Positions 1-37,325 of a stretch of DNA of 37,325 nt are shown here, piece after piece. Numbering within the stretch: the first letter of the stretch is position 1; each line of letters opens with the position of its first letter. Source of the DNA: an uncultured Ruminococcus sp. (lineage in GTDB: Bacteria > Bacillota > Clostridia > Oscillospirales > CAG-272); contig CACYWW010000019.1 in assembly GCA_902778145.1 (NCBI GenBank), positions 1 to 37,325 of the forward strand, given 5' to 3'. A program made the position numbers and the translations under genes. A model generated the notes under the pieces. That model worked only from the letters and a program-made list of their open reading frames with translations. It searched no databases and was not told the origin of the DNA.

Positions 1-260
1 GGGGAAACGGGATTTGCGCCGCCAAAGGGGTTCCCCGCCGCGAACTTGTGAGCGGTGGGGGTTCCCGCCGTGGGCGGATAAAGCAAATCACGTTTCGTGA
101 GAGCGGTCAAAAAATCAAACCGGGCTCTGCTCGGTGCGGATTTTTTGGGCACCGCAAACCGGATGTAAGGCCGGCTTTCCGGCCGCGCCCCCTCAGATAC
201 TTCTGAGGGAGGGGTTAAGGGGGGTTGGGGGTTATGAGGGGTGGGGGGCACGCTATAATA
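1..260. repeat. Dispersed multi-hairpin repeat, copy A, left part
   Basis: Non-coding block made of successive palindromes. One is an AAACGGGATTTGC...GCAAAT-CGTTT hairpin, here with an extra insert at 27-64. The next is a terminator-like palindrome with AAAAAATC at 109-116 and GATTTTTT at 139-146. Last comes the family hallmark CCCCTCAGATACTTCTGAGG near 187-212. The same modules recur at 6840-7290, 17325-17606, 33058-33565 and 37040-37325. ORFs across it are low-complexity by-products of the repeat and should not be called genes. The right part of this copy resumes at 1333, after the IS element. Confidence 0.85.
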
Positions 261-1292
261 TCAAGTGCAACAAAAAAATATTGACTTCAAGATGTCCAAG
301 GTGTAAAATGAAGTTACCACATCAACATAATGCACGGAGGACAAGATGAAGCCGTATACACATTTTACACCGGAAGAAAGAGTTTGTCTAGAGGTAATGC
401 GAAAAAAAGGGATAAAAATTTCTGAAATCGCAAAAAGCCTTAAAAGAGACAGGAGCAGTGTTTACAGGGAGATAAAAAGGAATCAAAGTCAAACGGGAGA
501 ATATACGGCGGTAAATGCCATATATCTTTACAAAAGCCGCAGAAAAAGAAGCGTTCGAAGAGCAAGAATAAAACCGGACTCGAATATATATCGGTTTATA
601 CGCAAAAGGCTTAAAAAGTACTGGTCTCCGGAGCTGATCTCAGAGAAGTGGAACAAAAAAACGTTAATAACAGAATAGCCTTCGCAACAATATACAGAGC
701 TGTTAAAAACGGAACGATCAATGGCATTACTCCGGGAAACAATTTCAGACGCAGAGGAAAGCCGGTAACAAGAGACAGATCGCGATTCAACACAATTCAA
801 CCGGAACATACTATTCATGAATGGCCGGAAGAAATTAAGCAGCGGATAAGACTTGGGGATTGGGAGGGAGATACGTTAAGAGGCTCTCCCGGTAAAGGCG
901 GATTACTTACATTGGTTGACAGACGTTCCCGATATTTGATAGCGGTGCTGATACAAAGCTATTCAAGTAAATCTCTTAAAGCTGCTTTATTGCAAGCTTT
1001 CAAAGGTATACATCCGAAAAGCCTTACTCTGGATAACGGTTCCGAGTTTGCGTTGTTCCGTGAATTCGAGAAAGAACTCGATACAACTGTATATTTTGCA
1101 GATCCTCATTCGCCGTGGCAAAGAGGATCAAACGAAAACATGAACGGTCTGCTTCGTTTCTGGTTTCCCAAAAGCTTTGATTTTCGTACTGTTTCCCAAG
1201 CTGATGTTGATTATGCTGTCGATCTCATTAATTCCAGACCGAGAGCTTGCCTCAATTATCGCTCTCCTAAACAAATTTTTTGTCGCACTTGA
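261..1292 (+). mobile_element. IS30-family insertion sequence
   Basis: About 1.03 kb, the usual size for IS30 elements. Terminal inverted repeats are visible. The left end (261-279) reads TCAAGTGCAACAAAAAA, and the reverse complement of the right end (1274-1292) reads TCAAGTGCGACAAAAAA, so about 17 of 19 positions match. The right repeat overlaps the transposase stop codon. The element sits inside copy A of the dispersed repeat: the GAGGGGTGGGG module lies just left of it, and the module GAGCACG...GGTCGAGGCAGAG...GTTGATCA lies to the right at 1333-1390. I could not identify a convincing target-site duplication. Boundaries are good to a few bases. Confidence 0.8.
346..1292 (+). pseudogene. IS30-family transposase, split in two frames at an A7 run
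   Basis: DDE transposase of the IS30 family, which cuts and joins the element ends. The first frame (346-678) gives the N-terminal HTH region (EERVCLEVMRKKG...ISEIAKSLKRDRSSVYREI). The second frame (from about 648 to 1292) gives the catalytic core: GDWEGDT carries the first Asp, TLDNGSEF the second Asp, and RGSNENMNGLLR the Glu. Family members are normally one ORF. The frames join naturally at the A7 run (655-661), where a -1 shift gives ...WNKK-NVNNRIAFATIYRAV. The site C AAA AAA A could allow programmed -1 slippage. A single-base indel that killed the gene is equally possible, so pseudogene is a cautious label. AGGAGG-like sequence (GGAGGAC) precedes the start. Confidence 0.75.
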
Positions 1293-1400
1293 CTTGACAA
1301 TTTGCCGGCACCCCCAAGAACGTGAAAGCAGAAGAGCACGTCCGGTCGAGGCAGAGTCTTCATCAGTCAATCCCGTTTCGCGTTGATCATTTGTCGGCGT
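1293..1400. repeat. Dispersed repeat copy A, right part
   Basis: Right remnant of the repeat interrupted by the IS30 element. From 1333 it follows the module order of other copies: a GAGCACG block, a GGTCGAGG block, CTTCATCAGTC, then CGTTGATCA. This matches the ends of copies C and D (17550-17606 and 33420-33478). The first 40 bases after the IS do not match the other copies. Confidence 0.7.
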
Positions 1401-1468
1401 TTGCCGGCAATTCAAAATCGATACGAGCGTTTTCCCTTATTATTTCACAATAATTTCGCTTTCGGGGC

Positions 1469-1497
1469 TTGCAATTCCGCATATTGTGTGCTATAAT
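1469..1497 (+). promoter_or_regulatory. Sigma-A promoter with extended -10
   Basis: TTGCAA at 1469-1474, a 17-bp spacer, and a perfect TATAAT at 1492-1497 preceded by TGC (extended -10). Transcription should begin near 1504. It drives the small ORF or RNA at 1504-1687 and possibly, by read-through, the lipoprotein gene at 1777. Confidence 0.75.
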
Positions 1498-1548
1498 AAG
1501 TTGGATTATAATATTTGGAATAGTTTTACGAAAAGGAGCTTGACAAAG

Positions 1549-1665
1549 ATGACGAAAAACGCGATGATCCTGTCTGTCTGTAAGTCAGTCAAGGGTACCC
1601 CTGTCTGCTTCTTTTGTCGATGCCTTTTTGAAAAAAATATCAATCGGCGCGATGCACTCGCTTGA
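1549..1665 (+). CDS. Candidate 38-aa small protein or leader peptide
   Basis: The start codon follows AAAAGGAG with a 10-base spacer, downstream of a strong promoter. The predicted peptide starts MTKNAMILSVCKSVKG, has four cysteines in its first 25 residues (C11, C20, C23, C25) and ends NRRDALA. I do not recognise a family. Its stop codon lies inside the terminator hairpin at 1647-1687, an arrangement also typical of leader peptides. A ~184-nt non-coding RNA spanning 1504-1687 is an alternative reading, since CTTGAC (1539-1544) could pair with GTCAAG further down. Coding status is uncertain. Confidence 0.35.
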   Translation: MTKNAMILSVCKSVKGTPVCFFCRCLFEKNINRRDALA

Positions 1666-1687
1666 CGCGGGTTTGTCGCGCTTTTTT
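1647..1687 (+). terminator. Intrinsic terminator or attenuator ahead of lipoprotein gene
   Basis: Outer stem GCGCGA (1647-1652) with TCGCGC (1676-1681), inner stem ACTCGC with GCGGGT, followed by six T. It ends the transcript from the 1469 promoter, 90 bp before the lipoprotein start, so it could act as an attenuator. Confidence 0.75.
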
Positions 1688-1776
1688 CTTCCCGCTCTTT
1701 GCCGTGTCTGCGGATCTTCCTTTGTTCGTCCTCCCGTTGGGATAGAAAATAAAATAATAAAATCAGGAGGCCACTT

Positions 1777-2463
1777 ATGAAAAAGTTACTTATACTCGCG
1801 CTTGCTCTCTTAATGATCGTCAGCCTGGCGGCTTGCAAAGGCAGCGATCCCGGAAGCACCGGCACAAACCCGCCTGCAAGCAGCACCGGTGATAATCAGC
1901 AGTCCGGAAACGAGTCCGGCGACAGCAACACCTCGCAAAGCGGCAATAACGCCGAGGCGGCAAAACTCACCGGAAAACTCAATATCATCAATCTTGACGA
2001 CAGGGATCCGTCCGTACTTCGCGGCGTGACCATCAAAGGCAACCATGCCGGCGGCTTCGACGGCATCAACGGAAAAGAGTCCTCTCTGACCGACGTCCGC
2101 TGCATCTTTGAACTGAACGAGTGGGTCTATTTCTACCCGGATACCGACGCGACCTACGGACTCAGAGTCTGGATCCTCAAGCACCGCGACGATCAGGAAT
2201 ACTACAACACAGCCAAATTCTCCGATCTCGATCCGAACTTTGCGAACTATTGCGATCTTCATTATCCCGAAGATGCGGAAAATCCGGATGAGTGGTACTG
2301 GGGCAGCTTCTATCTGCATCCCGAAGAATGCGAACCCGGCTATTACGATTTCGTCTTCACCTATGAGGGAAAAGCCGTCGCCACCCTGCTGACGCGCTTC
2401 TATGCCGAAAATGAACTCACCGTCAAATCCGACGCGGAGCTTGAAGCGCTGATGCACGAATGA
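1777..2463 (+). CDS. Secreted lipoprotein, unknown function (possibly truncated by an in-frame TGA)
   Basis: 228 residues. A lipoprotein signal peptide (MKKLLILALALLMIVSLAAC) has a clear lipobox with Cys20. A Ser/Thr/Asn/Gly-rich linker (about residues 22-60) follows, then a globular part rich in aromatics (WVYFYPDTDATYGLRVWI, EWYWGSFYLHP). No family recognised. The start has an excellent AGGAGG site (1767-1772). The TGA at 2461-2463 is followed in the same frame by 82 further sense codons with coding character (see 2464-2712), so the ancestral protein was probably about 311 residues. It would be anchored to the outer face of the membrane. Confidence 0.75.
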   Translation: MKKLLILALALLMIVSLAACKGSDPGSTGTNPPASSTGDNQQSGNESGDSNTSQSGNNAEAAKLTGKLNIINLDDRDPSVLRGVTIKGNHAGGFDGINGKESSLTDVRCIFELNEWVYFYPDTDATYGLRVWILKHRDDQEYYNTAKFSDLDPNFANYCDLHYPEDAENPDEWYWGSFYLHPEECEPGYYDFVFTYEGKAVATLLTRFYAENELTVKSDAELEALMHE

Positions 2464-2712
2464 GCGGCGCCGTGTTTTGTAAAGCTTGTCGAAGACAACG
2501 GCGGCTTTGAGTATTATCAGGCGTACCGGGGCGACGTGGATCTGATACCCGGCGGCAAGGTCAAGGCGAGCGGGTTTACCGTTGACGCCGAGGAGGAAGA
2601 CCAAAACGTTTACGGGGTCGTCGTCTACACATATTCGGCTTATAACGCAGACAGATATCGCGTTGAGGTGACGTTTGCGTCCGGTACGGCCGGAATAACG
2701 ATAAACAAATAA
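2464..2712 (+). pseudogene. In-frame continuation of the lipoprotein beyond TGA
   Basis: Directly after the TGA the same frame stays open for 82 codons to TAA (2710-2712). It reads like a beta-rich domain, with segments such as FVKLVEDNGGFEYYQAY, DVDLIPGGKVKASGF and YRVEVTFASGTAG. Codon use matches the upstream part and there is no start codon or ribosome site of its own. The simplest reading is a nonsense mutation (TGG or CGA to TGA) in a longer gene. Stop-codon read-through is possible. Genome-wide TGA reassignment is unlikely because other genes here end with TGA, such as the one at 9503. Confidence 0.65.
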
Positions 2713-2880
2713 ATGAAAGGGCTGCCGCAAAAGCGTATTCTGCGAGGTGTGGTGCTCTAAAGGACAGTCAATAAAAACCGGCTGAGGTAAGGACAATGAA
2801 GTCCTTATTTCAGACGGTTTTTTCGTCGCATATCACCGCAAGCAGGACGTTTGTGTGCCAAACGTCAAAGAAACAGTTTA

Positions 2881-2993
2881 CAGTTATGATTGCACACGAT
2901 GCGTGCAAGTTATGAGTTGAGGCTTCGCCTCAACGTGCGATCATAACGCGCGTCAGCGCTCATAACGTTCCGCGTAAGCGGAACTCATAACTG
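2881..2993. repeat. Small palindromic hairpin-array element nested in R2
   Basis: A 113-bp segment bounded by CAGTTATGA (2881-2889) and its inverse TCATAACTG (2985-2993). Internal short hairpins are separated by TTATGAG or TCATAAC spacers. They include GTTGAGGC/GCCTCAAC (2916-2934) and GTTCCGC/GCGGAAC (2967-2984), plus weaker ones at TTGCAC...GTGCAA and GCGC...GCGC. It has no coding potential and is missing from the other R2 copy, so it looks like a separate insertion. Confidence 0.65.
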
Positions 2994-3035
2994 CCGACTG
3001 TCCTTAAGAACAGTCGGCAGACAGCCCGGTTTTTT
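2991..3035 (+). terminator. Terminator-like hairpin at R2 end
   Basis: Perfect 11-bp stem CTGCCGACTGT (2991-3001) with ACAGTCGGCAG (3010-3020), then ACAGCCCGG and a T6 run. It would stop plus-strand transcripts coming from the lipoprotein gene. Confidence 0.55.
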
Positions 3036-3128
3036 CATCTGTAATGTACTTTTCCATTTGCAGTGACATTCAAATTGATTTCAGATTTCACTGCGATCCG
3101 TTCGCTTCAAACCCTCAAGCAAACCGCA

Positions 3129-3173
3129 AGGGACACCTGCTCTGTCGCAAGTGTCCCTCCGGGGCTTTTTTTT
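3129..3173. terminator. Hairpin between convergent genes
   Basis: Stem AGGGACAC (3129-3136) with GTGTCCCT (3151-3158). On the plus strand a T8 run follows (3166-3173), ending at the stop codon of the convergent LytM-like gene. It probably serves plus-strand transcripts, and the hairpin may help in both directions. Confidence 0.6.
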
Positions 3174-4768
3174 CATTGAGGTAATCCGGTCTCGTTTATC
3201 AGTATCAGAGGCGAAACGAACGTGCTTCCTATGGAGAATCCTATGTGCATACGGTCCTTGTCGCCGAAGCCGCTGTTGTCGCTCTTCGCTATGACGTCCC
3301 CGCGTGAAACGGTCTGTCCGACGGTGACGCCGTCTGTCGTGACCCGGCAGTACCACGAGCGGGCGCCGTTGCCGTGATCTATGACGACCGTGCCGCCGTG
3401 AATCGGCGTGCTCTCCGCGAACACCACGGTGCCGGAGAGTATCGCGCGGACTTCCGTGCCACGCTCGACATCGTAATCCGCGCCGTCATGGCGGAATTCC
3501 TCGCCGGTCTTCTCGAGCTTCATGTAGTTGCCATAGCCGGTCTTGTGGTCGGTGCGCTTCGTCGGGGTAAGCGGTTTTTCGCCGGCGCAGGCGAGTCCGG
3601 ACTGTGACTGTGATCCGAAGACCCTCTGCTGCGCCGTTTCCTCCGCCGCCTTGTTTTCAGCCGAGAACACGCTCTTCAGCTCGGTCTCGGAGTTCGAGTA
3701 CGTCTTGCTCGAATAACTGAACTTTTCCACCGTTATCTTCTGCTCGAACTGCGCGCCGTCATATGACATACGCAGCGTGTATTCGCCGGGCTCGGTGCCG
3801 AAATACGTCGGCAGAAACGCGAACGTGTCCTCGCCGCTGTCGTAGAATACAGGTGTTGCTCCGATATCCGGCTCGCATGTGAACACAAGGCCGTCGGCTT
3901 TCGCGTGCTGAGCCTTAAGCGCTATTATGCTTCCCTGCTTGACCTTGTCCGCGGATACCGAAAAGCTCGCGTCCGGCATTATGAAAGCGTTGAATACGTA
4001 TGTCGCCTCACCGTACGAGTTCTGATCCGGCTCGTCGTTCCATACGGCTTTTATCTGTACCTTGAAATATTTGGATTCGCTTGAGGAGATACCGCGGAAC
4101 TCCTCGATCATGCGCGGGACGGTCTGCTCGCCGCCGTCGAATACGGTTATCACCGTGCTCGAGGGCTTGCGTGAAAACGATATGCCGAGCGTCGTCTTCG
4201 AGATCTTGTCAAGGTTCTTCACCTCGGTCGAAGTCGGTACGGAGATCGGCGTATAGCTGCCGTCCGCAGTGCGGTATTTCCACGAGATCTCGGCGGGTGT
4301 TATGACCGTCGCGAGATCGCCCGCGGTCAGGACCGGCACCGCGGTGTCGTAAAGACTTACGGCGTAGGGCTTTTCCATGAACGTGCGGCTCTTCATGCTG
4401 TCGGCTTTATAGCACTTGTCCTCGCCGTCCTTGAAATACACCTGATCGGGCATGTCCGCGGACATATAGAATTTATAGCTCGCCGTGCTGTCACCGCGCG
4501 TGAACCTGAGTATGAAGCTCTTGAATCCGTAGACCGCGTCGGGCACGGACTGGACGGACGAGCCGTTCGCGAGATCGGTGAGGAACCTGATCTCCTCCTT
4601 GTCCTCGACCGTATAAGTGTTTGCAAGAGAGTCGGTAATGACGACAAGACTTACGTCGTCCGGCGTGTTGATGATCTCCGGCTGTCTCGGCTTGTACAGA
4701 AAGATCGCAAGCACAGCCGGCACCAGCATGATGACAACGCAAACGATGAGAGTTACTTTGTTTTTCAT
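3173..4768 (-). CDS. Membrane-anchored M23/LytM-like protein with altered active site
   Basis: 531 residues. One N-terminal membrane segment (about 6-26) is followed by a long extracytoplasmic region and a C-terminal M23 domain (about 420-525). M23 enzymes cut peptidoglycan cross-bridges using a zinc held by H-x3-D and the second His of HxH. Here the zinc set is kept (H427 and D431 in RHDGADYD, H508 in RMHIGF). The two catalytic histidines are replaced: the YxH position reads YCR (R475) and the first His of HxH is R506. This resembles degenerate LytM proteins that act as scaffolds or activators, such as SpoIIQ, though the length differs and the assignment is only by analogy. GGAGCAGCAG precedes the start, 15 bp after the thioesterase gene. 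Confidence 0.8.
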   Translation of the reverse strand: MKNKVTLIVCVVIMLVPAVLAIFLYKPRQPEIINTPDDVSLVVITDSLANTYTVEDKEEIRFLTDLANGSSVQSVPDAVYGFKSFILRFTRGDSTASYKFYMSADMPDQVYFKDGEDKCYKADSMKSRTFMEKPYAVSLYDTAVPVLTAGDLATVITPAEISWKYRTADGSYTPISVPTSTEVKNLDKISKTTLGISFSRKPSSTVITVFDGGEQTVPRMIEEFRGISSSESKYFKVQIKAVWNDEPDQNSYGEATYVFNAFIMPDASFSVSADKVKQGSIIALKAQHAKADGLVFTCEPDIGATPVFYDSGEDTFAFLPTYFGTEPGEYTLRMSYDGAQFEQKITVEKFSYSSKTYSNSETELKSVFSAENKAAEETAQQRVFGSQSQSGLACAGEKPLTPTKRTDHKTGYGNYMKLEKTGEEFRHDGADYDVERGTEVRAILSGTVVFAESTPIHGGTVVIDHGNGARSWYCRVTTDGVTVGQTVSRGDVIAKSDNSGFGDKDRMHIGFSIGSTFVSPLILINETGLPQ

Positions 4769-4783
4769 CTGCTGCTCCTTATC

Positions 4784-6435: not shown

Positions 6436-6472
6436 ATCAAAATCTCCGAATCTGATGATAATATTTTTTGTT

Positions 6473-6501
6473 ATTATACCACGGCGGAAATAAAAAATCA
6501 A
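6473..6501 (-). promoter_or_regulatory. Sigma-A promoter of the fba operon
   Basis: On the minus strand TTGATT (6496-6501), a 17-bp spacer and TATAAT (6473-6478). It lies 38 bp upstream of the chosen fba start. It excludes the upstream extension of the reading frame as coding. Confidence 0.75.
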
Positions 6502-6577
6502 CACGATATTGTTACAATTCGTGCAGCAGAATATCAAGTTGCGCATATTATATAGTATGACCGTTAAGGAGATAGCC

Positions 6578-6730
6578 ATGAAAAAATGCAAAAACGCGAC
6601 GGGCGCGGTGACGGGCGCCGCGGTATGCTTCAGTCTCGGCGTACTGCTTTCGTTCTTTCTGCCGTACTACGTGATGATCGTGATCCTGTCGGTACTGATC
6701 CTGTTGATCTGTGTGATGAATCTTTTATGA
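6578..6730 (+). CDS. Small hydrophobic membrane protein preceding spoVM
   Basis: 50 residues starting MKKCKNATGAVTGA, with a strong AAGGAG site 8 bases before the ATG. The frame extends upstream but lacks a ribosome site there. After the short polar N-terminus comes VCFSLGVLLSFFLPYYVM and then IVILSVLILLICVMNLL, which suggests a two-helix hairpin in the membrane with a central LPYY turn. It is seven bases from spoVM and divergent from fba. I infer a link to sporulation from this position alone. Confidence 0.65.
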   Translation: MKKCKNATGAVTGAAVCFSLGVLLSFFLPYYVMIVILSVLILLICVMNLL

Positions 6731-6737
6731 GGTGTAT

Positions 6738-6821
6738 ATGAAGATAATCGTTCTCAAGCCCCCCGCCTTCATAGCGGGAGTGATAAGAAAAATGGTAAGG
6801 GAGTTCAGAGTCAAAGATTGA
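6738..6821 (+). CDS. spoVM: Stage V sporulation protein SpoVM
   Basis: A 27-codon microgene, MKIIVLKPPAFIAGVI... ending REFRVKD. In Bacillus subtilis SpoVM is a 26-aa amphipathic helix that recognises the curved forespore membrane and anchors SpoIVA and the coat. Positions that match it are M1, K2, K7, P9, F11, G14, R17, M19, F23, R24 and a final KD. Pro9, needed for correct membrane insertion in B. subtilis, is kept. The ribosome site GAGGTG ends 3 bases before the ATG and overlaps the stop of the 50-aa membrane protein, so the two are coupled. Very short genes like this are often missed. It indicates an endospore former. Confidence 0.85.
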   Translation: MKIIVLKPPAFIAGVIRKMVREFRVKD

Positions 6822-6839
6822 GAGATCGGAATGAAAAAA

Positions 6840-7290
6840 GATGAATGATAAGTGTGCTGTCAACCTGAGCAGAGCGAAGGAGCTTCTTCGGCATCATCGC
6901 ACGCCGTTGTATGGTGTTCGCCTCATCCACCACTTCGTGGTCCCCCTTCCCCAACGGGGGAAGGTATTTCGCGCCCCTCAGATACTTCTGAGGGAGGGGC
7001 AAGAGGGGGATAGGGGGAAACGGGATTTGCGCCGCCGGGGGCGGATAAAGCAAATTCCGTTTCGCGCAGCGGTCAAAAAATCAAGCCGGGCTCTGCCCGG
7101 CGCGGATTTTTTGGGCACCGCAAGCCGGAAGTTTGAGGGGTGGGGCTCCCCCGGCGTTGAGGCCGCAGAGCACGAAAAATCGAGGCAGGGACTTGACCCT
7201 GCCTTTTCGTTTCGCGTTGATCACTGATCACTTCACACTTGAATTCAGAATTCGCCGGATCCTTCACTGTGTTCAGGCTGACCCGCGCTG
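6840..7290. repeat. Dispersed multi-hairpin repeat, copy B
   Basis: Begins with GATGAATGATAAG and a CCTGAGCAGAGCGAAGGAG block. Then follow GTATGGTGTTCGCCTCATCC, ACCACTTCGTGGT (small hairpin), CCCCTTCCCC/GGGGAAGG, CCCCTCAGATACTTCTGAGG, the AAACGGGATTTGC hairpin, a terminator palindrome, TTTGAGGGGTGGGGCTCCC, and the GAGCACG/GTCGAGG/GTTGATCA end. A GGATCCTTCACTGTGTTCAG block follows near 7256. It fills the gap between spoVM and the convergent AlgX-like gene and contains no gene. Confidence 0.85.
7075..7112. terminator. Bidirectional terminator hairpin in repeat copy B
   Basis: AAAAAATC (7075-7082) and GATTTTTT (7105-7112) enclose CCGGGC/GCCCGG, a palindrome with an A tract on one side and a T tract on the other, so it can act in both directions. 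It could end the plus-strand spoVM transcript and the minus-strand thiI-AlgX transcript. The same module is at 109-146 and at the right end of the window. Confidence 0.7.
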
Positions 7291-7302
7291 CATCGCTCGC
7301 CC

Positions 7303-9489
7303 TTATTCCCACTGCCCGAGGTTCCTTTCGCATATCACGTAAATGACGAAATCCGGGGAATACTCGGCGATCTTTTTATAATCCGGTTCGTAGCGCCACA
7401 TTTTCTGGGCGTAGAGCAGGCTGAAGTGCTCGGAAATGACCGGGAACAGATTCGCGCTGTACGAATCACGGATCATGACGGCGACGGGGAGCGTCCCGTC
7501 GCTGCACGCGGACAGCAGCTCTCCGCCGTAGACGGAGCGGTCTATCGTTTCCGGCTTTGCGGGAAGTCCCACGGCTCTTGACCTGAAGCCCGGCGTCAGA
7601 AGGCATATCCTCTCCTTTATCCCGGTAAATCCGGCAAATCCGGAAAGGTCGCCGGGCGAGGCGTCGGCGTACGTCGGCGTGAACGCATTATATGAGTACG
7701 GCACGACGTTTCCGAACGTCTTTCCGACCTCCTCGATTATCGCGCGGTATCCGAAATACGCGCCCGCCTCCGTCCAGTGAGTGTCCGTCTGATAGTACAG
7801 CTTCGCTATATCCGTGTTCTCCCGCATGACCGCGCGCACGTCAAGAAACGTAAAACCGTCTATATCCGACAGAGCCGCCCTGAACTGATCGAGCCGCGTG
7901 ACGTCGGACCGCTTTTCCGAAACGCCTGGGGGCGCCGCGTCCGGATATACCGACAGCGGGTCCGGAGCCGCGAGGAATATCACCTTCGTATCCTTGCCGC
8001 TTTCGGCGCGTATCCTGCCGACGATAGACTCAAATCTCTCCCGGACCGCGGAAAGTCCGTCCGACCTGAGAAGGTTCTCGCCCGTGTAGTCCGGGAACGT
8101 CGCGCTGTAGCAAAGCATCGAGCCCTTGCCCGCGAATACGCTGCCGTCAGCGGATTTTGCCGTCGGCGCCGCGAAATACGACGTCGCTGAGCGTTCCCTG
8201 TTCTCCGCTTCCGCGTAAAATCTCAGTCTTTCTCCCTTCTCCGCCTTAAGCTCGGCGATGAACATCCCGTCAAGCGAGCTCACCGTCACGCTGTCGGACG
8301 ACGAGACGACGGTCACGCGGCACTCCGTCTCGCATCTGCCGGCGACAAGGAGGGTCCCGTCGCGCCTGAAAGACGCCGTGACCGGGATCGGGGCGGGCGT
8401 TATGCCGCCCGTTTCCGCGCCCTCGAGCACGAGCTCGTAGGATCTTCCGTCAGCCGGGTCGAGCAGCGAGGTCAGCATATCCTCACGCAATATACATACG
8501 CACGCCGCCGGCTTGATCGCGCCGCCGCAGTCGCTGTATCCGAGCGACGGCTCGTAGACCACATTCGTGTACGTCGCCGAGAAAAGCGTCATGAAAAGAC
8601 CTCTCTCATAAGGCGTCGGGCACTGTATGAGTATCTCGGATCTGCCGATGAAGCCGTTGTATTCATCCTTCATCGCCGTCACGGTCAGAGCGCCGGGGAC
8701 GCTCGTCTCATATACGTCCGTGAAGTCCCCCGTGCCGTAATATACGTTTTTGTTGCGGGCGAGCTTTTCGATACCCGCCGCCCGCGCGAGGCTTCTGCCC
8801 TCGGAATACGAGACGGAAATATCCGCGTCCGTCAGCGTGATCTGCCTTGCGCGCCGTCCGATCTGCTCCGGCAGAAGCGAAGCGATCTGTCTGTACACGA
8901 GATAGGCGCCGTAATCGTTCACGGCGTTCTCCGTGTTGTGGTACGTGTCGTATTTTGAATGCGCGAGCGCGGTATCGAGCAGATGAAAATTCGCGAACCC
9001 GTTCTCGTGCAGATATTTTTCCAGCTTCTGCGCGGCGGTCTCCGCGGTCTTTCCCGTGTTCAGCCTGTCCGTCATGACGGTCTGGCTGTTCGGCAGGACG
9101 AAAACGGAGTAGACGCAGCCGTCCTGCGCGAACGCGTCCGATCTTGTCTTCAGGGTCCGGAGGAACGCCGAAAGCGTCTCCCCGTCGTACGGCGCCTCGC
9201 CGCGGATGTCCGCGTCATAGTCGAAGCCGTCCGTCTTCGTCGGGAACAGGTATCCGTCCTTTCCGGATCTGACTCCCCGCGCCGTCACCTTCCCCGTGAG
9301 CCGGTAAAGCGCCTTTCTGAAGTTGACGCCGGGCGGGTCCGAGAACAAATGATACGCGACGTAGGAGAGCTTGTCCGGGTCGTCGCATTCTGACGAAAGC
9401 GCCGATATCACGGCAATATTGAAAGCGAGCACGACCGCCGCCGCGACGGCGGCGGTGATGAGTATTATCCTCAGTGCCCGCTTTTTCAT
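7303..9489 (-). CDS. Double AlgX/AlgJ-like SGNH protein (second of pair)
   Basis: 728 residues, with an N-terminal membrane anchor (about 8-30). Two AlgX-like modules flank an Ig-like linker (about 385-450). AlgX/AlgJ proteins are SGNH-fold enzymes that O-acetylate extracellular polysaccharide, usually with an MBOAT partner. The C-terminal module has the full active set: TDTHW (D569, H571), RDSYS (S676) and the closing CERNLGQW. In the N-terminal module the DTHW equivalent reads TENAVND and the nucleophile region reads CPTPY, so it looks inactive. It starts 13 bp after its paralogue. Substrate is unknown and no MBOAT gene is in the window. A DHHW-type label would be an alternative. Confidence 0.75.
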   Translation of the reverse strand: MKKRALRIILITAAVAAAVVLAFNIAVISALSSECDDPDKLSYVAYHLFSDPPGVNFRKALYRLTGKVTARGVRSGKDGYLFPTKTDGFDYDADIRGEAPYDGETLSAFLRTLKTRSDAFAQDGCVYSVFVLPNSQTVMTDRLNTGKTAETAAQKLEKYLHENGFANFHLLDTALAHSKYDTYHNTENAVNDYGAYLVYRQIASLLPEQIGRRARQITLTDADISVSYSEGRSLARAAGIEKLARNKNVYYGTGDFTDVYETSVPGALTVTAMKDEYNGFIGRSEILIQCPTPYERGLFMTLFSATYTNVVYEPSLGYSDCGGAIKPAACVCILREDMLTSLLDPADGRSYELVLEGAETGGITPAPIPVTASFRRDGTLLVAGRCETECRVTVVSSSDSVTVSSLDGMFIAELKAEKGERLRFYAEAENRERSATSYFAAPTAKSADGSVFAGKGSMLCYSATFPDYTGENLLRSDGLSAVRERFESIVGRIRAESGKDTKVIFLAAPDPLSVYPDAAPPGVSEKRSDVTRLDQFRAALSDIDGFTFLDVRAVMRENTDIAKLYYQTDTHWTEAGAYFGYRAIIEEVGKTFGNVVPYSYNAFTPTYADASPGDLSGFAGFTGIKERICLLTPGFRSRAVGLPAKPETIDRSVYGGELLSACSDGTLPVAVMIRDSYSANLFPVISEHFSLLYAQKMWRYEPDYKKIAEYSPDFVIYVICERNLGQWE

Positions 9490-9502
9490 ATTCTTTTCCT
9501 TA

Positions 9503-17283: not shown

Positions 17284-17324
17284 CGAAACCTCCGGAAAAT
17301 CAAGAATTATGAAATATGAACGCG

Positions 17325-17606
17325 GAATGATAGCACCCTGTCATCCCGAACGCGGCGAAGGAGCTCCTTCGATCAGCGCCGCACACCGTCTGTGCCGCCG
17401 CATGGTGTTCGCCTCATCCACCGCAAGCGGTCCCCCTTCCCCAAGAGGGGAAGGTTTGCCGCGCCCCTCAGATACTTCTGAGGGAGGGGTAAGAGGGGGA
17501 CAGGGGGAGTTTTGAGGGGTGGGGCTCCCCCGGCGTTGAGGCCGCAGGGCACGAACGGTCGAGGTACGGACTTCATCAGTCCGACCCGTTGATCACCGAT
17601 CATTCG
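17325..17606. repeat. Dispersed multi-hairpin repeat, copy C
   Basis: Compact copy: GTCATCCCGAACGCGGCGAAGG, the GTGTTCGCCTCATCCACC block, CCCCTTCCCCAAGAGGGGAAGG, CCCCTCAGATACTTCTGAGG (17463-17482), TTTTGAGGGGTGGGG-CTCCC and the GGTCGAGG/CTTCATCAGTC/CGTTGATCACCGATCA end. It lacks the AAACGGG hairpin and the terminator module. Its right edge supplies the last codons and stop of the GH78 gene. There is no gene in this gap. Confidence 0.85.
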
Positions 17607-23909: not shown

Positions 23910-23912
23910 GCG

Positions 23913-25934: not shown

Positions 25935-25946
25935 ATATACCTCCGC

Positions 25947-26736: not shown

Positions 26737-26751
26737 AAGTTTATACCATGA

Positions 26752-31167: not shown

Positions 31168-31181
31168 GATCCCTCCGGTAT

Positions 31182-31263
31182 AAACAAACGCAGAAAACAG
31201 ACCCGTCCGTTCTCTGCGTCACATGTTATGCTCACTATCCGCAGAAAACGCAAAGCTTCTGCG
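31182..31263 (-). promoter_or_regulatory. Attenuator-like leader of the pheA-aro operon
   Basis: On the minus strand the ~110-nt leader has four mutually complementary segments: 1 = CGCAGAA, 2 = TTTTCTGCG (both 31240-31263), 3 = CGCAGAGAAC and 4 = GTTTTCTGCG (31189-31218). Segments 3 and 4 form a perfect 13-bp hairpin (two G-U pairs, CGGG loop) followed by TTTGTTT, an intrinsic terminator just before the pheA ribosome site. Segment 2 can pair with 3 instead, giving an antiterminator. No leader peptide with a canonical start was found, so the sensor is unknown. Confidence 0.6.
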
Positions 31264-31278
31264 CCTTTTCTTTTTTAC

Positions 31279-31307
31279 AGTATAATATAGAACAAAGAAA
31301 ATGTCAA
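31279..31307 (-). promoter_or_regulatory. Sigma-A promoter of the aro operon
   Basis: Consensus TTGACA (31302-31307), a 17-bp spacer and TATACT (31279-31284) on the minus strand. Transcription should begin about 31272, giving the leader described at 31182-31263. Confidence 0.8.
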
Positions 31308-31330
31308 GTGAAATATTGCAAATTGTTTTT

Positions 31331-32116
31331 TCAGGACAAAAGCATCCTGTCATTGTCGAGCTCCTCGCCCGACGCCTCGCGAAAGCGGGAGAGCAGATCC
31401 GCAACGGACAGTCCGGCGCGCTCTTCGCCCTCCGTATCGAGTATTATCCTTCCGTCGCGCATCATGACGGTCCTGTTCCCGAGCGCGAGCGCGGAGGACA
31501 TGTTGTGGGTTATCATCAGGCACGTCAGCCCCTCCTCCTTCACGGTGCGCTCCGTCACCTCGAGGATCTTTTCCGCCGCGGCGGGGTCGAGCGCCGCCGT
31601 ATGCTCGTCGAGCAGAAGCAGCTTCGGCGGGTTGACCGTCGCCATCAGAAGCGTCAGCGCCTGACGCTGGCCGCCCGACAAAAGCCCGACCGGCGTCTTC
31701 ATCCGGTCCTCGAGACCGAGCCCGAGCGAAGCGACGCGCTGTCTGAGACGCTCGCGCGCGGCTTTCTTCGGAAGCGAGAGATATCTTCCGCCGCCCGCGG
31801 CGAGAAGCAGGTTCTCCTCCACCGTCATCGACGGCGCCGTCCCCGTCTTCGGATCCTGGAAAAGTCTGCCGATGTACGAGGCGCGTTTGTAGTCCGGCGT
31901 GCGCGTTATGTCGTTCCCGTCGAGGACGATCCGCCCGGTATCCGGTATGAAGGCGCCCGATACCGCGCCGAAAAGCGTTGATTTTCCGGCTCCGTTCGAG
32001 CCGATGATCGTTATGAAATCGCCGTCTTTAACGCTGAGATTTATATCCGACAGCGCTTTTTTCTCGTTGACCGTGCCGGCGTTGAAGGTCTTTGACACGT
32101 TTATCAGTTCAAGCAT
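31331..32116 (-). CDS. trpZ: ABC transporter ATPase, TrpZ-like
   Basis: 261 residues. Walker A GSNGAGKST, signature LSGGQRQALTLL, Walker B LLLLDEHTAALD and H-loop MITHNMSSAL are intact. It powers uptake with the permease and binding protein upstream. The family (COG1101) accompanies permeases like the neighbour, and the Trp T-box ahead of the operon supports the trpXYZ assignment. It overlaps the permease gene by 8 bp. Substrate is inferred, not shown. Confidence 0.85.
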   Translation of the reverse strand: MLELINVSKTFNAGTVNEKKALSDINLSVKDGDFITIIGSNGAGKSTLFGAVSGAFIPDTGRIVLDGNDITRTPDYKRASYIGRLFQDPKTGTAPSMTVEENLLLAAGGGRYLSLPKKAARERLRQRVASLGLGLEDRMKTPVGLLSGGQRQALTLLMATVNPPKLLLLDEHTAALDPAAAEKILEVTERTVKEEGLTCLMITHNMSSALALGNRTVMMRDGRIILDTEGEERAGLSVADLLSRFREASGEELDNDRMLLS

Positions 32117-33041
32117 CGCCGCCCTCCTTGCGTCTGCCCGTCCGTTTGAAGAATTCCGGGAGTTTTTTTCTGAAATACGGCGCGGATATCGCGATGATGA
32201 CTATGACCGCCGAGACGAGCTTCAGCATGTACGCCGGCATCTCGAGCCTGAGCGCGAGCGCGTACACGGCGCGGAAAACGATGGCGCCGACGACTGCGCC
32301 GACCGCGCGCAGACCTATCGCGCCGCGGCGGAAAAGCGTCCCGCCGATCAGAAGCGAGGCGAGCGCGACCGTGACCATGCCCTGGCCCATGTTGATATCC
32401 GCGAGCTTCTGCGACTGCGCCATGAGACAGCCTGACAGAGCCGTGACGGCGTTCGCCGCGCAAAGCCCGACGGTCACGGTGAACACGGGGTTGACGGAGG
32501 AATAGCGTACCATCTCCGGGTTGTCGCCCGTGGCGCGTATCGCGAGCCCGAGACGCGTTTTGAGAAACAGGGTCAAAAGCAAAACGACGATAACGACCGC
32601 CGCGAGCGCGACGGCGACGCGGTGCCATCCGGCAAGGAACGTCCCGTCAAAGACGCGCTTCAGCTTTGTGAAAACAGTCTCCGCGGCGTTCAGATTTATC
32701 AGTGATTTTCCGCTCATCACCGCTATGTTCACCGAATAAAGCCCGGTATTGACGATGATGCCGGCGAGCAGGCTGTTGATGCCCATCCGCGTCTGCAGAA
32801 ACGCCGTTATGAACCCGGAGCAGACGCCCGCCGCCATGGCAGCGGGTATGGAAAGCCACGGGTGACCCGAAAACGCGACCGCCGCTCCGACCGCCGCGCC
32901 GAGCGTGAAACAGCCGTCGGTCGAAAGATCGCACACGTTCAGCATCGAGTACGAAAGAAACAGCGCAAGCACCGTAAGCGAGCCGATAAGCCCCAGCTCC
33001 GTAACGGACTGGACGGTTGTCAGAATGTTCTGGATAGTCAT
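32109..33041 (-). CDS. trpY: ABC transporter permease, TrpY-like
   Basis: 310 residues from the ATG at 33041 (MTIQNILTTVQSVTELG), which has AGAGG 5 bases upstream. The longer open frame includes sequence from the adjoining repeat. About eight to nine membrane segments include LIGSLTVLALFLSYSMLNV and VAVALAAVVIVVLLLTLFL. The cytoplasmic motif RTRLGLAIRATGDNPEMVRY is typical of the BPD_transp_2 branch. The repeat at 33058-33565 separates it from the binding-protein gene. Confidence 0.85.
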   Translation of the reverse strand: MTIQNILTTVQSVTELGLIGSLTVLALFLSYSMLNVCDLSTDGCFTLGAAVGAAVAFSGHPWLSIPAAMAAGVCSGFITAFLQTRMGINSLLAGIIVNTGLYSVNIAVMSGKSLINLNAAETVFTKLKRVFDGTFLAGWHRVAVALAAVVIVVLLLTLFLKTRLGLAIRATGDNPEMVRYSSVNPVFTVTVGLCAANAVTALSGCLMAQSQKLADINMGQGMVTVALASLLIGGTLFRRGAIGLRAVGAVVGAIVFRAVYALALRLEMPAYMLKLVSAVIVIIAISAPYFRKKLPEFFKRTGRRKEGGDA

Positions 33042-33057
33042 AAATACCTCTTGGGGA

Positions 33058-33565
33058 ATTAAGAATGATAAATAATGAATGAAGAATGATAAGCGCCGTG
33101 TCAGCCTGAGCGAAGCGAAGGATCTCATTCGGCATCATCGCACGCCGTTGTATGGTGTTCGCCTCATCCACCACAATCCGCGAACCCCCACCGCTCACAA
33201 GTTCGCGGCGGGGAACCCCGGGCGCGGTCCCCCTGTCCGGTTCGCAATCATAGATTGCTTCACCGCTTTGGCTAAAAACTCCACACCGTGGAGTTTTCTT
33301 AACGCGTCGCGCCCCTACAGGGGAAGGTCTGCCGCGCCCCCTCAGATACTTCTGAGGGAGGGGATAGAGGGGGACAGGGGGAGTTTTGAGGGGTGGGGCT
33401 CCCCCGGCGTTGAGGCTGCAGGGCACGAACGGTCGAGGTGCTGACTTCATCAGCCGGACCCGTTGATCGCCGATCACCGCGTTTGAATCCGGACCGGATC
33501 CTTAACTGCGTTCAGGATTACACCGCTTTGTCCCGCTCCCCGTCATTCTGAATTCATCATTCCGA
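33058..33565. repeat. Dispersed multi-hairpin repeat, copy D, inside an ABC operon
   Basis: About 0.5 kb, the most complete copy. The ends are inverted: GAATGATAAATAATGAATGAAGAATGAT on the left and TCATTCTGAATTCATCATTC (33543-33562) on the right. Inside are the CCTGAGCGAAGCGAAGG block, GTGTTCGCCTCATCCACC, an inverted 38-nt module shared with copy A (33182-33219), hairpin AAACTCCAC/GTGGAGTTT (near 33280), CCCCTCAGATACTTCTGAGG (33342-33361), GAGGGGTGGGG-CTCCC and the GTTGATC end. A GGATCCTTAACTGCGTTCAG block follows. There is no gene inside. Confidence 0.85.
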
Positions 33566-33580
33566 ATTCCGAATTCTGGA

Positions 33581-34594
33581 TTAAAACTCTGCCGCCGTTT
33601 TTATCGGCTGGACTTTTGTGCAGTACGGCTTGAAGAGCTCCGCCATGTCATTGTAATCGAGTCCGAGCTTTTCGCAGATATCCGTGTTGACGGTCGCCGT
33701 ACCGTTGTCGAACGTTCTGACCGCAAGCGTCGCCGGGTCTTTGCCATCGATCAGTATCTCCGCCGCCATATCAGCCGTGACCCTGCCGAGGTTCGCGTAG
33801 TCTACCCCGTAGCCGAGGAACGCGCCGTTGAGAGCGAAGCTGTCGGCGCCGGCGTAGTGGAGTATGCCGTTTTCCGCAAGCTTTTCGTATATCGAAAGCT
33901 CCGCCGTCATGACGGTGTTATCGGACGGCGTGAACAGCGCGGTTATACCGTCGGATACCATTTTGTCTGTCTGCAGGACTATCTCCGACGTGTTCGTGCC
34001 GGTGTACTCCTTCACCTCCACGCCTTTAGCCGCAAGATACGTCTTCGCTTCCTTTATCGCCGCGGTCGAGGAATCCTGCCCTACGTCGTAAAGCAGGCCG
34101 ACCTTTGAAATTGCCGGCTCATTCGCGAAGATCAGATCCATGATCGCCTTCGTGTCAAGGTAATCCGACGTGCCGGTCAGATTCGAGCCCGGCGCGTCAA
34201 GCGACTTTACAAGCCCCGCGCCGAGCGGATCGGAGACCGCCGCGAAGACAACCGGGATCCGGTCGTCCTCCGTCGCCGCCTGCATCGCTATCGCGACGGG
34301 CGTCGCGACCGCGACCATCAGATCGACCTTGCTGTTCTTGAATTCCGTGATGATCTGTGAGAGAACGCCGCTGTCCGCGTTGCAGTTCTTTTCGATTATC
34401 TTTATCGTCTTGTTCTTTGCCTGCGCGATCGACGTGAGCTGCGACTTGATGTTCGCAACTATCTGGTTGAGCGAGGCGTCGTCGACATAGTTGCATATGC
34501 CGACTGTGAAATCGGTTTTGCCGTCCTTTTTGCACGACGTGAAGACAGATACCGCGATGACGAATACGAGGATGAGGGAAACGAGTTTTTTCAT
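33581..34594 (-). CDS. trpX: ABC transporter substrate-binding lipoprotein, TrpX-like
   Basis: 337 residues from the ATG at 34594 (MKKLVSLILVFVIAVSVFTSC). The signal peptide and lipobox Cys21 fix this start, and AAAGGAAG lies upstream. The frame further upstream runs through the T-box and is not coding. The mature part is a two-lobed PF04392-type binding protein: VGICNYVDDASLNQIVANIK, KVDLMVAVATPVAIAMQAA, PVVFAAVSDPLGAGLV, GLLYDVGQDSS and ALFTPSDNTVM. It captures the ligand, inferred to be tryptophan, outside the membrane. Confidence 0.88.
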   Translation of the reverse strand: MKKLVSLILVFVIAVSVFTSCKKDGKTDFTVGICNYVDDASLNQIVANIKSQLTSIAQAKNKTIKIIEKNCNADSGVLSQIITEFKNSKVDLMVAVATPVAIAMQAATEDDRIPVVFAAVSDPLGAGLVKSLDAPGSNLTGTSDYLDTKAIMDLIFANEPAISKVGLLYDVGQDSSTAAIKEAKTYLAAKGVEVKEYTGTNTSEIVLQTDKMVSDGITALFTPSDNTVMTAELSIYEKLAENGILHYAGADSFALNGAFLGYGVDYANLGRVTADMAAEILIDGKDPATLAVRTFDNGTATVNTDICEKLGLDYNDMAELFKPYCTKVQPIKTAAEF

Positions 34595-34638
34595 TTTGTT
34601 TTCTTCCTTTCTTTTTATTCGTATGCCCCGGTAAAAAC

Positions 34639-34898
34639 AAAAAATCCCGGGCATGCGTGCATGCTTGGGACGAATAAATATCCGCGGTACCACCCAAATT
34701 GAGGCAAAGCCTCCGCTCTTTTTACGTACTGACATACGCAGCGCCGCAGATAACGGGAGCGCACCCCGTCGGAGCATACTCGAGAACTTTCAGCCCCGCC
34801 CTCAAAAGACCATTCGCGTGACTTACCGCGCCGCACTCACACCGCCTGCGGCTCGCTGTACCGGATCGGAACACGTTACTTTCCTTCGTCATCGGTTT
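34639..34898 (-). promoter_or_regulatory. T-box leader, probably tryptophan-specific (UGG)
   Basis: On the minus strand the hallmark T-box sequence GGGTGGTACCGCGGA is at 34681-34695. A terminator TCCC-AGCATGC/GCATGC-GGGA plus T6 follows (34639-34670). Stem I has AGTA (GAAAGTAACGTG), an apical AGCGAGCCGC...GGTGTGAG segment, and a 3' side reading CACGCGAATGGTC. A stem AAGGA/TCTTT closes right after TGG (34810-34812), making UGG the best specifier codon; AUG in the overlapping frame is the alternative. Uncharged tRNA binding would allow read-through into trpX. Confidence 0.88.
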
Positions 34899-34904
34899 GG
34901 AGCG

Positions 34905-34933
34905 ATTATACCACTCAAATGACGGTTTGTCAA
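34905..34933 (-). promoter_or_regulatory. Sigma-A promoter of the T-box/trpXYZ operon
   Basis: Consensus TTGACA (34928-34933), 17-bp spacer and TATAAT (34905-34910) on the minus strand. Start of transcription about 34898. Confidence 0.85.
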
Positions 34934-35031
34934 TAGCTTTTTGCAAAATTTTGCGGGATTTTATTCAAATCCCGCGTCAGTTTGCATTTTTTTCGTTTAT
35001 TTCCGTCAAAGCGCCTTCAGAGCCTGCCCTG

Positions 35032-35862
35032 TCACGAAAGCCTTTTTATCAGATAAGGCAGCACCGGCTCGAACTTCACGCCGTAGCTGTGAGCCGGATC
35101 GTCCGCCGTGTTTTCGATACAGGCGACCGTATAATCCGCCGCGACCGCCGCGGCGTCATACGCGCTCATTCCGCGCATATACGCGCCGACAAAGGCGGAG
35201 GCGTAGACGTCGCCCGTGCCGTGGCTGCCGCGCGGCAGCTTTTTATGCCTGTAATAATCGAATTTTTCGCCGTCGAGCACGGCGACGCCGGTCGTCTCTT
35301 CGTCGTAGCTGACGCCGGTAAGGACCACGGTCTTAGCGCCGGAATCGCGCAGAGCGCCCATCATTTCGCGGACGTATTTCTCGTCGTATTCCTCCCTGTA
35401 ACCGATCCCGGTCAGATACGACGCCTCGGTCATATTCGGGAGTATGATATCGGCGGAGAACGCAAGGCGCCTCATCTGCCGCGCGTATTCCTCGTCGAAC
35501 GCCGGGTACAGCTTGCCGTTGTCCGCCATCGCGGGGTCGACGACGGTGACGGCGCCCGGCGCGGAAAGCGTTTTTATTATATCGAGCACCTGATCGATCT
35601 GCCCGACCGAACCGAGATAGCCCGTGTAGATCCCGTCAAAGCTTATGTGCTCCGACCTCCAGTGCGCGGCGATCGCCGGGATATCGTCGGAAAGATCGCG
35701 GACGGTGTATCCGGTAAAGCCCGCCGTATGCGTTGAGAGCACCGCGGACGGAAGGATCACGGTCTCAAGTCCCGCGGCGGAGAGTATCGGCAGCGCCACC
35801 GTGAGCGAGCACTGCCCGAAGCATGATATATCCTGTATGGTAAGCACCCTTTTATACGACAT
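35032..35862 (-). CDS. Pyridoxal/pyridoxine/pyridoxamine kinase
   Basis: 276 residues, ribokinase fold, PdxK/PdxY type (COG2240). It phosphorylates B6 vitamers to the 5'-phosphates for PLP salvage. Motifs are an N-terminal VLTIQDISCFGQCSLTVALPILSAAG, VVDPAMADNGKLYP, DIILPNMTEASYLTG, VLTGVSYDEETTG and the anion-hole/catalytic Asp motif GSHGTGDVYASAF. AAGGAGG lies 8 bases before the ATG. It is divergent from the MocR-type regulator, the common layout for a PLP-responsive pair. PdxK versus PdxY cannot be settled here. Confidence 0.88.
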   Translation of the reverse strand: MSYKRVLTIQDISCFGQCSLTVALPILSAAGLETVILPSAVLSTHTAGFTGYTVRDLSDDIPAIAAHWRSEHISFDGIYTGYLGSVGQIDQVLDIIKTLSAPGAVTVVDPAMADNGKLYPAFDEEYARQMRRLAFSADIILPNMTEASYLTGIGYREEYDEKYVREMMGALRDSGAKTVVLTGVSYDEETTGVAVLDGEKFDYYRHKKLPRGSHGTGDVYASAFVGAYMRGMSAYDAAAVAADYTVACIENTADDPAHSYGVKFEPVLPYLIKRLS

Positions 35863-35875
35863 TTCAAAAACCTCC

Positions 35876-35904
35876 TTGACAAATCACTGAAAGTATTATA
35901 CAAT
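35876..35904. promoter_or_regulatory. Overlapping divergent promoters between B6 kinase and MocR gene
   Basis: Plus strand: TTGACA (35876-35881), 17 bp, TACAAT (35899-35904), which drives the regulator. Minus strand: TATAAT (reverse of 35895-35900) for the kinase, with a poor -35. The -10 elements overlap, so one bound regulator could switch both. The in-frame ATG at 35903 lies in the -10 element and cannot be a start codon. Confidence 0.6.
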
Positions 35905-35953
35905 GGATTTGATAATATTAAATATTCAGAATTGGAGAATTTTATATAACCAG

Positions 35954-37039
35954 ATGAGATACAGGGTCGACGTTGATTCAAAAACGCCCGCGTACATGCA
36001 GCTTTATACGGAGCTTCGTGACGACATAACGGACGGGGTATATTCCCACGGCGAGAAGCTGCCGTCAAAGCGGACGCTCTGCGCCGAGGCGGGCGTGTCC
36101 GTCATAACGGCAGAGCACGCGCTCGCGATCCTCTGCGACGAGGGCTACGCGGAGGCGCGCCTGCGGAGCGGGTATTACGTAATATATAAAAAAGACGATT
36201 TCATATCGTCAGGCTCGGGCGGACGCGTGCGGGAGGCGGCGCCGTCGCACGGAGGGACCGGGGATTTTCCGTTTTCCGTGATAGCGAAGACGATGCGCCG
36301 CGTCCTATCCGACCGCGGCGAGGACATTATGACGAAGTCTCCGAACCGCGGCGTCCCGGAGCTGCGCGAGGCGGTGGCGTCATACCTGCAGAGGAGCAAC
36401 GGGATGCGTGTGAACGCCGGGCAGATAGTCATCGGGGCCGGCGCGGAGTATCTTTACGGTCTTCTGCTCCAGCTGCTCGGGGCTGACCGGATATACGCGA
36501 CGGAGGATCCGTGTTACGGCAGGATAAGAAGCGTGTACGGCGCACACGGCGTGACATGCGAGGCGCTTTCCCTCGGGGACGACGGGATAACGTCGGAGGC
36601 GCTGTCGTCGAGCCGTGCGTCCGTTCTGCACATAACGCCGTTCCACAGCTACCCGAGCGGCGTGACGGCGTCCGCGTCAAAGCGCCGCGAGTACCTCGCC
36701 TTCGCCCGCCGCCGCGGCGGATACATTATCGAGGACAATTACGACTCCGAGCTCACCGTCTCGCGCAAGAACGAGGAAACGGTCTTCTCGCTCTCCGACG
36801 ACGGCAGGGTGATATACGTGAATACGTTTTCGATGACCGTCGCCCCGTCTATCCGCGTCGGCTACGCCGTTCTGCCGCCGGAGCTTTCCCTGCTGTTTGA
36901 TGAAAAGCTCGGATTTTATTCATGCACCGTCCCCGTGTTCGAGCAGTACGTCCTCTGCCGCCTGATAGAAAACGGCGACTTCGAACGCAACATCAACCGG
37001 ATCAGAAGAAAAAAAAGAAAAGCGGCGGCGGTGAATTAA
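35954..37039 (+). CDS. MocR/PdxR-type GntR-aminotransferase regulator, degenerate and truncated
   Basis: 361 residues from the ATG at 35954. Residues about 1-75 are a GntR winged helix (YMQLYTELRDDITDGVYSHGEKLPSKRTLCAEAGVS). From about 100 comes an aminotransferase-I fold: ATEDPCYGRIR, ITPFHSYPSG, IEDNYDSEL (PLP-contact Asp). The Schiff-base lysine of the family motif TFSK is Met294 (TFSMTVAPSIRVGY). The protein stops about 60 residues after that motif, roughly 90-100 residues short of the family, ending KKRKAAAVN where repeat copy E begins. It may still bind DNA but is unlikely to bind PLP normally. No strong ribosome site is seen. Confidence 0.8.
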   Translation: MRYRVDVDSKTPAYMQLYTELRDDITDGVYSHGEKLPSKRTLCAEAGVSVITAEHALAILCDEGYAEARLRSGYYVIYKKDDFISSGSGGRVREAAPSHGGTGDFPFSVIAKTMRRVLSDRGEDIMTKSPNRGVPELREAVASYLQRSNGMRVNAGQIVIGAGAEYLYGLLLQLLGADRIYATEDPCYGRIRSVYGAHGVTCEALSLGDDGITSEALSSSRASVLHITPFHSYPSGVTASASKRREYLAFARRRGGYIIEDNYDSELTVSRKNEETVFSLSDDGRVIYVNTFSMTVAPSIRVGYAVLPPELSLLFDEKLGFYSCTVPVFEQYVLCRLIENGDFERNINRIRRKKRKAAAVN

Positions 37040-37325
37040 GAATGATGAATGCAGAATGATACAAGCGCCGTCATCCCGGGCGCGGCGAAGGATCTCTTTC
37101 GGTGTTATTGCGTACCGCCGCATGGTGTTCGCCTCATCCACCACTTCGTGGTCCCCCTTCCCCTACAGGGGAAGGTCTGCCGCGCGCCCCCTCAGATACT
37201 TCTGAGGGAGGGGTAAGAGGGGGTTTGGGGGAAACGGGATTTGCGCCGCCGGTGGCGGATGAAGCAAATTCCGTTTCGTGCAGCGGTCAAAAAATCAAGC
37301 TGAGCTTTGCTCGGCGCAGATTTTT
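37034..37325. repeat. Dispersed multi-hairpin repeat, copy E (runs off the window)
   Basis: Left end GAATTAAGAATGATGAATG (37033-37051) matches the left end of copy D, and GAATGATGAATGCAGAATGA matches the inverse of D's right end. Then come GTCATCCCGGGCGCGGCGAAGG, GTGTTCGCCTCATCCACC, ACCACTTCGTGGT, CCCCTTCCCC/GGGGAAGG, CCCCTCAGATACTTCTGAGG (37190-37209), the AAACGGGATTTGC hairpin and the start of the terminator palindrome. It supplies the stop codon of the MocR gene. Confidence 0.85.

Follow-up and report, generated by a model that had tools for sequence, protein, structure and literature searches.

We analysed a stretch of 37,325 nucleotides (the window), which is the entire contig CACYWW010000019.1 (C19) of the 2.42-Mb, 84-contig genome of an uncultured Ruminococcus sp. 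(GCA_902778145.1). Five places in the window carry a composite, multi-hairpin repeat (copies A to E), and these copies belong to an extensive family of short hairpin sequences that look mobile and are akin to repetitive extragenic palindromic (REP) repeats and bacterial interspersed mosaic elements (BIMEs). Their modules share the order TL-S1-[J,K,A,Q]-H-[Z,T,U]-V-X-S2-TR, in which TL and TR, like S1 and S2, form inverted pairs. The copies and their parts are as follows.

1..250, plus strand: left end of copy A, the contig end being cut inside the copy
251..1320, plus strand: passenger, presumably IS30-like (open reading frames (ORFs) 346-678 and 648-1292), lodged in copy A's V palindrome; limits drawn by eye
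1321..1391, plus strand: right part of copy A, the V end and an X-like stretch, 66-70% to other copies
6829..7302 (approximate limits), plus strand: copy B, from repeat comparison and module scan
7072..7132, plus strand: module T of copy B, an A-tract, hairpin and T-tract, terminator-like on both strands (DNA fold z -5.21)
17294..17606, plus strand: copy C (TL S1 A H V X), flanked on either side by a minus-strand gene, from repeat comparison and module scan
33053..33576, plus strand: complete copy D (TL S1 n Q H V X S2 TR), flanked by an ABC substrate-binding gene and its permease
33056..33093, plus strand: TL end of copy D, from the module definition
33100..33147, plus strand: S1 of copy D, from the module definition
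33182..33219, minus strand: N hairpin of copy D, reversed, in the A hairpin loop (inverted repeat 41 nt, 98%)
33482..33538, plus strand: S2 of copy D, the inverse of the S1 core, from the module definition
33540..33576, plus strand: TR end of copy D, the inverse of TL (inverted repeat to copy E, 27 nt, 89%)
37033..37325, plus strand: copy E, cut by the contig end, from repeat comparison and module scan

The first-pass annotation, made from the letters alone, had proposed five copies of such a repeat. The repeats are real, as direct repeats of 138-149 nt (62-94% identity) connect the places it named, but there are far more than five. Copy B alone has 99 matching places across the genome, and its next-best full-length match reaches E 1.1e-134, which excludes chance. 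In a single search copy B matched 82 times in its own genome and 0 to 72 times in the 11 other genomes of the genus. The limits above replace those first drawn for copies B to E, and the inverted match between the ends of D and E was confirmed, positions 33543-33569 and 37033-37059 being 89% complementary over 27 nt. Both ends of the contig (1-250 and 37033-37325) fall inside copies, as do the ends of several other contigs; the repeats thus break this assembly.

To describe the family we compiled 19 recurring modules from stretches around further copies and scanned 524 kb with them. That sample was picked mostly around known copies, so the density of clusters in it is not representative; in the first 20 kb of contigs C2, C3, C4, C5 and C6, picked irrespective of copies, no cluster exceeded the size cut (at least two modules and a summed score above 80). 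The scan gave 64 clusters, 48 of them above the cut and 47 orientable, and the counts below exclude the 16 small clusters and the one without orientation. Genes were predicted with a simple codon model of our own making.

Modules recur in a fixed order: 232 adjacent core pairs conform and 24 violate it, against a maximum of 143 conforming in 1000 shuffles, the order having been derived from the very copies scored. TL is present in 23 and TR in 22 of the 47 oriented copies, both ends in 13, S1 in 29 and S2 in 17. H (37 matches, in most copies) carries four G-runs on its element strand, and V has 34 matches. The N hairpin is set within other hairpins. The predicted fold of copy D pairs TL with TR (z -5.24, none of 100 shuffles equally good), and the TL and TR ends are themselves imperfect 7-nt arrays of varying length. 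The mosaic of hairpin modules in similar order, with inverted ends, was thus correctly recognised at the outset. Imperfect 7-nt arrays also flank or sit within the TL, TR and K modules and the repeats of relatives (loci L193, L194, L114 and L120).

The elements lie between predicted genes, mostly touching a stop codon, and none of the 48 clusters falls wholly within a predicted gene. Where an element end faces a stop codon, it lies within 40 nt of it in 36 of 46 cases, compared with 10 of 31 for ends that face a start. Copies C and D start just upstream of a sequence resembling the ribosome-binding site of the next gene. The cluster map therefore upholds the proposed placement at gene ends and within operons, and a position near ORF ends is described as typical of REPs in the passages available from PMC3733652.

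Comparison with relatives favours past movement. The permease gene beside copy D (32109-33041) has close orthologues in seven relatives. The gap between permease and substrate-binding gene, about 540 nt here, measures 12 (L178), 26 (L173), 41 (L177) and 49 nt (L179) in four of them, so copy D is absent from the orthologous operon gap in four of the seven. In two others the gap is 181 (L176) and 190 nt (L175), filled by a different GC-rich stretch, and in L174 no substrate-binding gene was matched beside the permease orthologue. The gene neighbouring copy E is present in nine of 11 relatives; by eye, no such element stands at the site in L190, L192, L195 and L196, while L188, L193 and L194 carry their own repeats, L191 contains a repeat-like stretch of another kind and L189 stops after 165 nt. 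The gene adjoining copy C had no match in the 11 other genomes of the genus. Copies fixed at conserved positions would have spoken against the movement first proposed, and at D and E the outcome was the opposite. No target-site duplication could be detected among 12 copies with both ends: the best shared flank averaged 1.42 nt, compared with 1.38 nt for re-paired flanks (P 0.49), a null result that old copies could produce by losing their duplications. No transposase bounded by TL and TR was seen in the stretches read, no genome-wide search having been made.

The copies are also polar. A single orientation prevails in 12 of the 13 contigs with at least two oriented copies, the exception being C22. 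With the elements masked, GC skew is negative on the strand that carries the element for 44 of the 47 copies. Positive GC skew generally marks the leading strand. By block the agreement is 19 of 22, or 14 of 15 where |z| is at least 2. The exceptions are on C57 and C78, which have almost no skew, and at C22:75919, near a change of skew sign. Copies sharing a contig are not independent, so binomial P values are too small. We considered the direction of neighbouring genes as the cause of orientation and rejected it for gene-symmetric settings: the majority gene strand predicts 39 of the 47 orientations, but among the 13 copies in gene-symmetric settings (nine convergent, four divergent) it predicts nine, whereas all 13 lie on the negative-skew strand, two of them (on C55 and C22) also at almost zero skew. 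A control corrected for gene strand points the same way, though it shifted the odds little.

Because codon usage makes raw third-codon GC skew unusable as a replication marker, we compared the genes of the two strands instead. At four-fold degenerate sites, GC skew read on the coding strand is -0.062 in the 123 genes that share the element strand and +0.015 in the 221 on the other (per-gene P 0.002); intergenic DNA has a skew of -0.033 when read on the element strand. Taken together, these values establish a modest strand-wide bias beyond gene direction. In a sister species (G011), 70 matches merge into 37 elements; eight of nine contigs with several elements are uniform, and 29 of the 37 agree with skew, or 13 of 16 where |z| exceeds 2. 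Of the eight misses, six are no more than 1.5 kb from a contig end; the same holds for many of the agreeing elements.

Fixed order together with near-uniform orientation along stretches of chromosome suggests insertion in step with DNA replication. We favour, with moderate confidence, the view that the copies are non-autonomous, composite REP/BIME-like elements, and propose a model in which such composites would spread at replication forks. A composite family of this kind also fits how the assembly breaks inside the repeats. The first-pass annotation, though right about the mosaic, had overlooked the REP-type modules, strand polarity and a gene, in trans, for a REP-associated tyrosine transposase (RAYT).

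The hairpins S1 and S2 resemble CGTC-type REPs (Di Nocera et al. 2013, PMC3733652) as far as the accessible text of that paper describes them: they have an xGTC tag, a 5-nt outer stem starting AT, inverted pairing and a place near ORF ends. Unlike those REPs, they carry exact CGTC in a minority, a 2-nt mismatch within the stem, a 3-nt loop and a weak fold. TGTC, stated in the same excerpts to be a variant tag, also occurs here (TGTC 6, CGTC 5, GGTC 4 among 15 S-type hairpins, in a search that itself demanded xGTC, TGTC or CCTC). The composites resemble BIMEs and other mosaic regions in forming intergenic clusters, with a REP pair inside a longer palindrome; Neisseria CGTC-1 clusters, according to the same text, interleave with other families, and REP dimers can lie within palindromes. 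They differ in fixed order and apparent replication polarity, which the portions of PMC3733652 at hand do not describe for such regions. REPINs (REP doublets forming hairpins; Bertels and Rainey 2011, PMC3116915) share the inverted REP pair, which in the part of that work available is considered to travel as one piece. No joint movement of S1 and S2 was seen, and between them lie hundreds of bases of other hairpins. In a further likeness, the same source describes tandem REP arrays that are forward on one side of the SBW25 chromosome, those on the opposite side being reversed.

Module J points to a second REP type. It consists of GTAG plus a hairpin, CGTAGGGCGGGGGCTTGCTCCCGCCG (DNA fold -7.5 kcal/mol, z -1.75, 10 of 200 shuffles equally good), and 26 nt identical to it occur twice, in opposite orientations and in frame, inside a RAYT-like gene of the same genome (C24:34784-35299, 182 residues, E 3.5e-85) whose protein has the HUH-type motif IMPNHIH. 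A PF01797 search had found no match in this genome; among the 12 genomes of the genus, five matched at E below 0.001, two of these over the cut-off. A profile built from the five matched proteins then found RAYT-like genes in all 12, some merely as fragments, so the PF01797 miss was a false negative. The RAYT-like genes of L238, L239 and L245 hold J matches of 25-27 nt likewise, one copy at 96%. In-frame REPs within the gene are, in the accessible part of Quentin et al. 2018 (PMC6006769), a feature of TnpA_REP subclass 2.4 of GTAG-type REP/RAYT systems. The present case differs in that J is one optional component within a larger composite and that its RAYT gene has no flanking REP within the 3.5-kb locus, and the likeness is one of features, not of tree placement.

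In L228, L232, L243, L244 and L246, RAYT-like genes carry different in-frame GTAG-type hairpins, so several REP-RAYT pairs coexist in the genus. By eye, the RAYT-like gene directly follows an AAA ATPase-like gene in L240 (G000:C24) and L230 (G004:C1), which we take to be of the rarA/mgsA type.

Several observations weigh against our favoured reading. J occurs in only 11 of the 47 oriented copies and in none of those in the window, so that RAYT would account for a single module rather than for the composite as a whole. In its 3.5-kb locus (L240) the RAYT gene lacks flanking REPs, unlike the REPtron arrangement, and the only two J matches there are intragenic. Only five of 15 S-type hairpins have exact CGTC, and the S1 hairpin (5 bp, a 2-nt mismatch, 2 bp and a loop of 3, compared with a stem of 8-9 bp and a loop of 4-5 in the CGTC type) folds no better than shuffles (z -0.18). 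On the side of polarity, raw third-codon skew is often opposite in sign to overall skew, so that plain GC skew blends strand and codon-usage effects; no more than 15 of the 22 blocks have negative intergenic skew; eight of 37 elements in the sister species disagree with skew; and the origin and terminus of the chromosome were not located.

One alternative, which we judge unlikely, is that polarity comes from selection. REP-like copies might insert in either orientation and those of one orientation be lost, for instance because the G-runs of H and V, or wrongly facing terminators, do harm on one strand. The four G-runs on the element strand of H, its presence in most copies, and an excess of nearby genes on the opposite strand (221 anti, 123 co) are as this would predict. 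However, gene direction did not account for the convergent and divergent settings, and copies free of H and V (C22:29862, C31:8092 and C38:15035) fit the polarity as well, although these are few and the skew on C22 is almost zero.

A conventional miniature inverted-repeat transposable element (MITE), as first suggested, is also unlikely. Here TL and TR would serve as terminal inverted repeats for a DDE transposase of the cut-and-paste kind, with the mosaic arising through later insertions and recombination between copies. The mutually inverse ends, paired in the predicted fold of copy D and both present in 13 copies, the lack of a gene of its own and the empty sites in relatives are all MITE-like. 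Yet target duplications were not found in the 12 two-ended copies, the ends are imperfect arrays of varying length, the single orientation per contig would go unexplained and no partner transposase was seen, though none was sought genome-wide. MITE status is not demonstrated, and the label was not borne out.

It is tempting to speculate that a RAYT-type enzyme moves several unrelated hairpin families, including GTAG-tagged J and CGTC-like S1/S2, by joining hairpins, while single-stranded, into the loops of others at the replication fork, an idea to which we give a low probability. If true, this would give rise to nested elements whose replication polarity is fixed, and the enzyme would be the missing transposase of CGTC-type REPs, which are said in the available passages of PMC3733652 to lack a dedicated one; mechanisms of REP dissemination are called poorly understood in the abstract of PMC8266576.

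Nine terminator-like sites lie in 6500-7600, around copy B, compared with 0.8 in shuffles; six are inside the copy, as variants of two hairpins. Hairpins such as T, once inserted, might stop transcription in both directions. The terminator palindromes noted at first thus hold for copy B; the sole such site near copy D falls outside that copy, and a general terminator function is unsupported. That the copies are fixed, non-mobile regulatory or terminator elements at gene ends, as the sites of copy B and the 36 stop-facing ends could suggest, is very improbable given the site outside copy D, the absence of copy D in relatives and the varying number of copy B matches across the genus.

What merits attention is the fixed order in combination with polarity, the unusual trait of these repeats. 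In the passages of the REP literature covered, a selection from that literature, we came across no mention of replication polarity in composites of this kind, and literature searches with sequence strings, which turned up a single unrelated paper, gave no earlier description of these sequences. A constant module order, the lack of a detectable target duplication and a largely shared orientation within each contig would together be a testable signature of fork insertion in any complete genome of the genus.

Beyond the genus, module A seems to have its own distribution. A degenerate A-hairpin pattern occurs in at least 118 stretches; among the matches listed (80, own-genome records possibly omitted) are many kinds of Clostridia as well as Selenomonas and Schwartzia; judging by record titles, many come from herbivore guts. 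In 22 loci examined the A hairpin stands alone or beside other hairpins, so the modules seem to have separate histories; the whole TL-S1...TR frame was not seen in these 22, and 7-nt arrays lie nearby in L114 and L120. The double hairpin of module A is found in Negativicutes and several clostridial families (L077, L064, L071, L110, L113 and others). This suggests a wide spread of module A alone.

Copy A is split at about 251-1320 by two ORFs in overlapping frames, 346-678 and 648-1292, a passenger that we take to resemble IS30; its ends, by eye, differ from TL and TR. The second ORF has an integrase-core domain (PF00665, E 7.9e-12), so the statement that no transposase lies inside a copy fails here, and the supposed broken gene is this passenger transposase rather than a host gene disrupted by the repeat. 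Insertion sequences that enter REPs are known, according to the part of PMC1525189 available.

Around copy D, a T-box leader (34663-34901, minus strand, 112.2 bits), the only feature to reach threshold in an Rfam scan of the window, heads the ABC substrate-binding gene, followed by copy D and then the permease. Since copy D sits between the two genes, an effect on this T-box-led operon is plausible from the arrangement. A 28-codon ORF (MKIIVLKPPAFIAGVIRKMVREFRVKD; about 6739-6822, plus strand), which presumably resembles SpoVM, adjoins copy B on its left.
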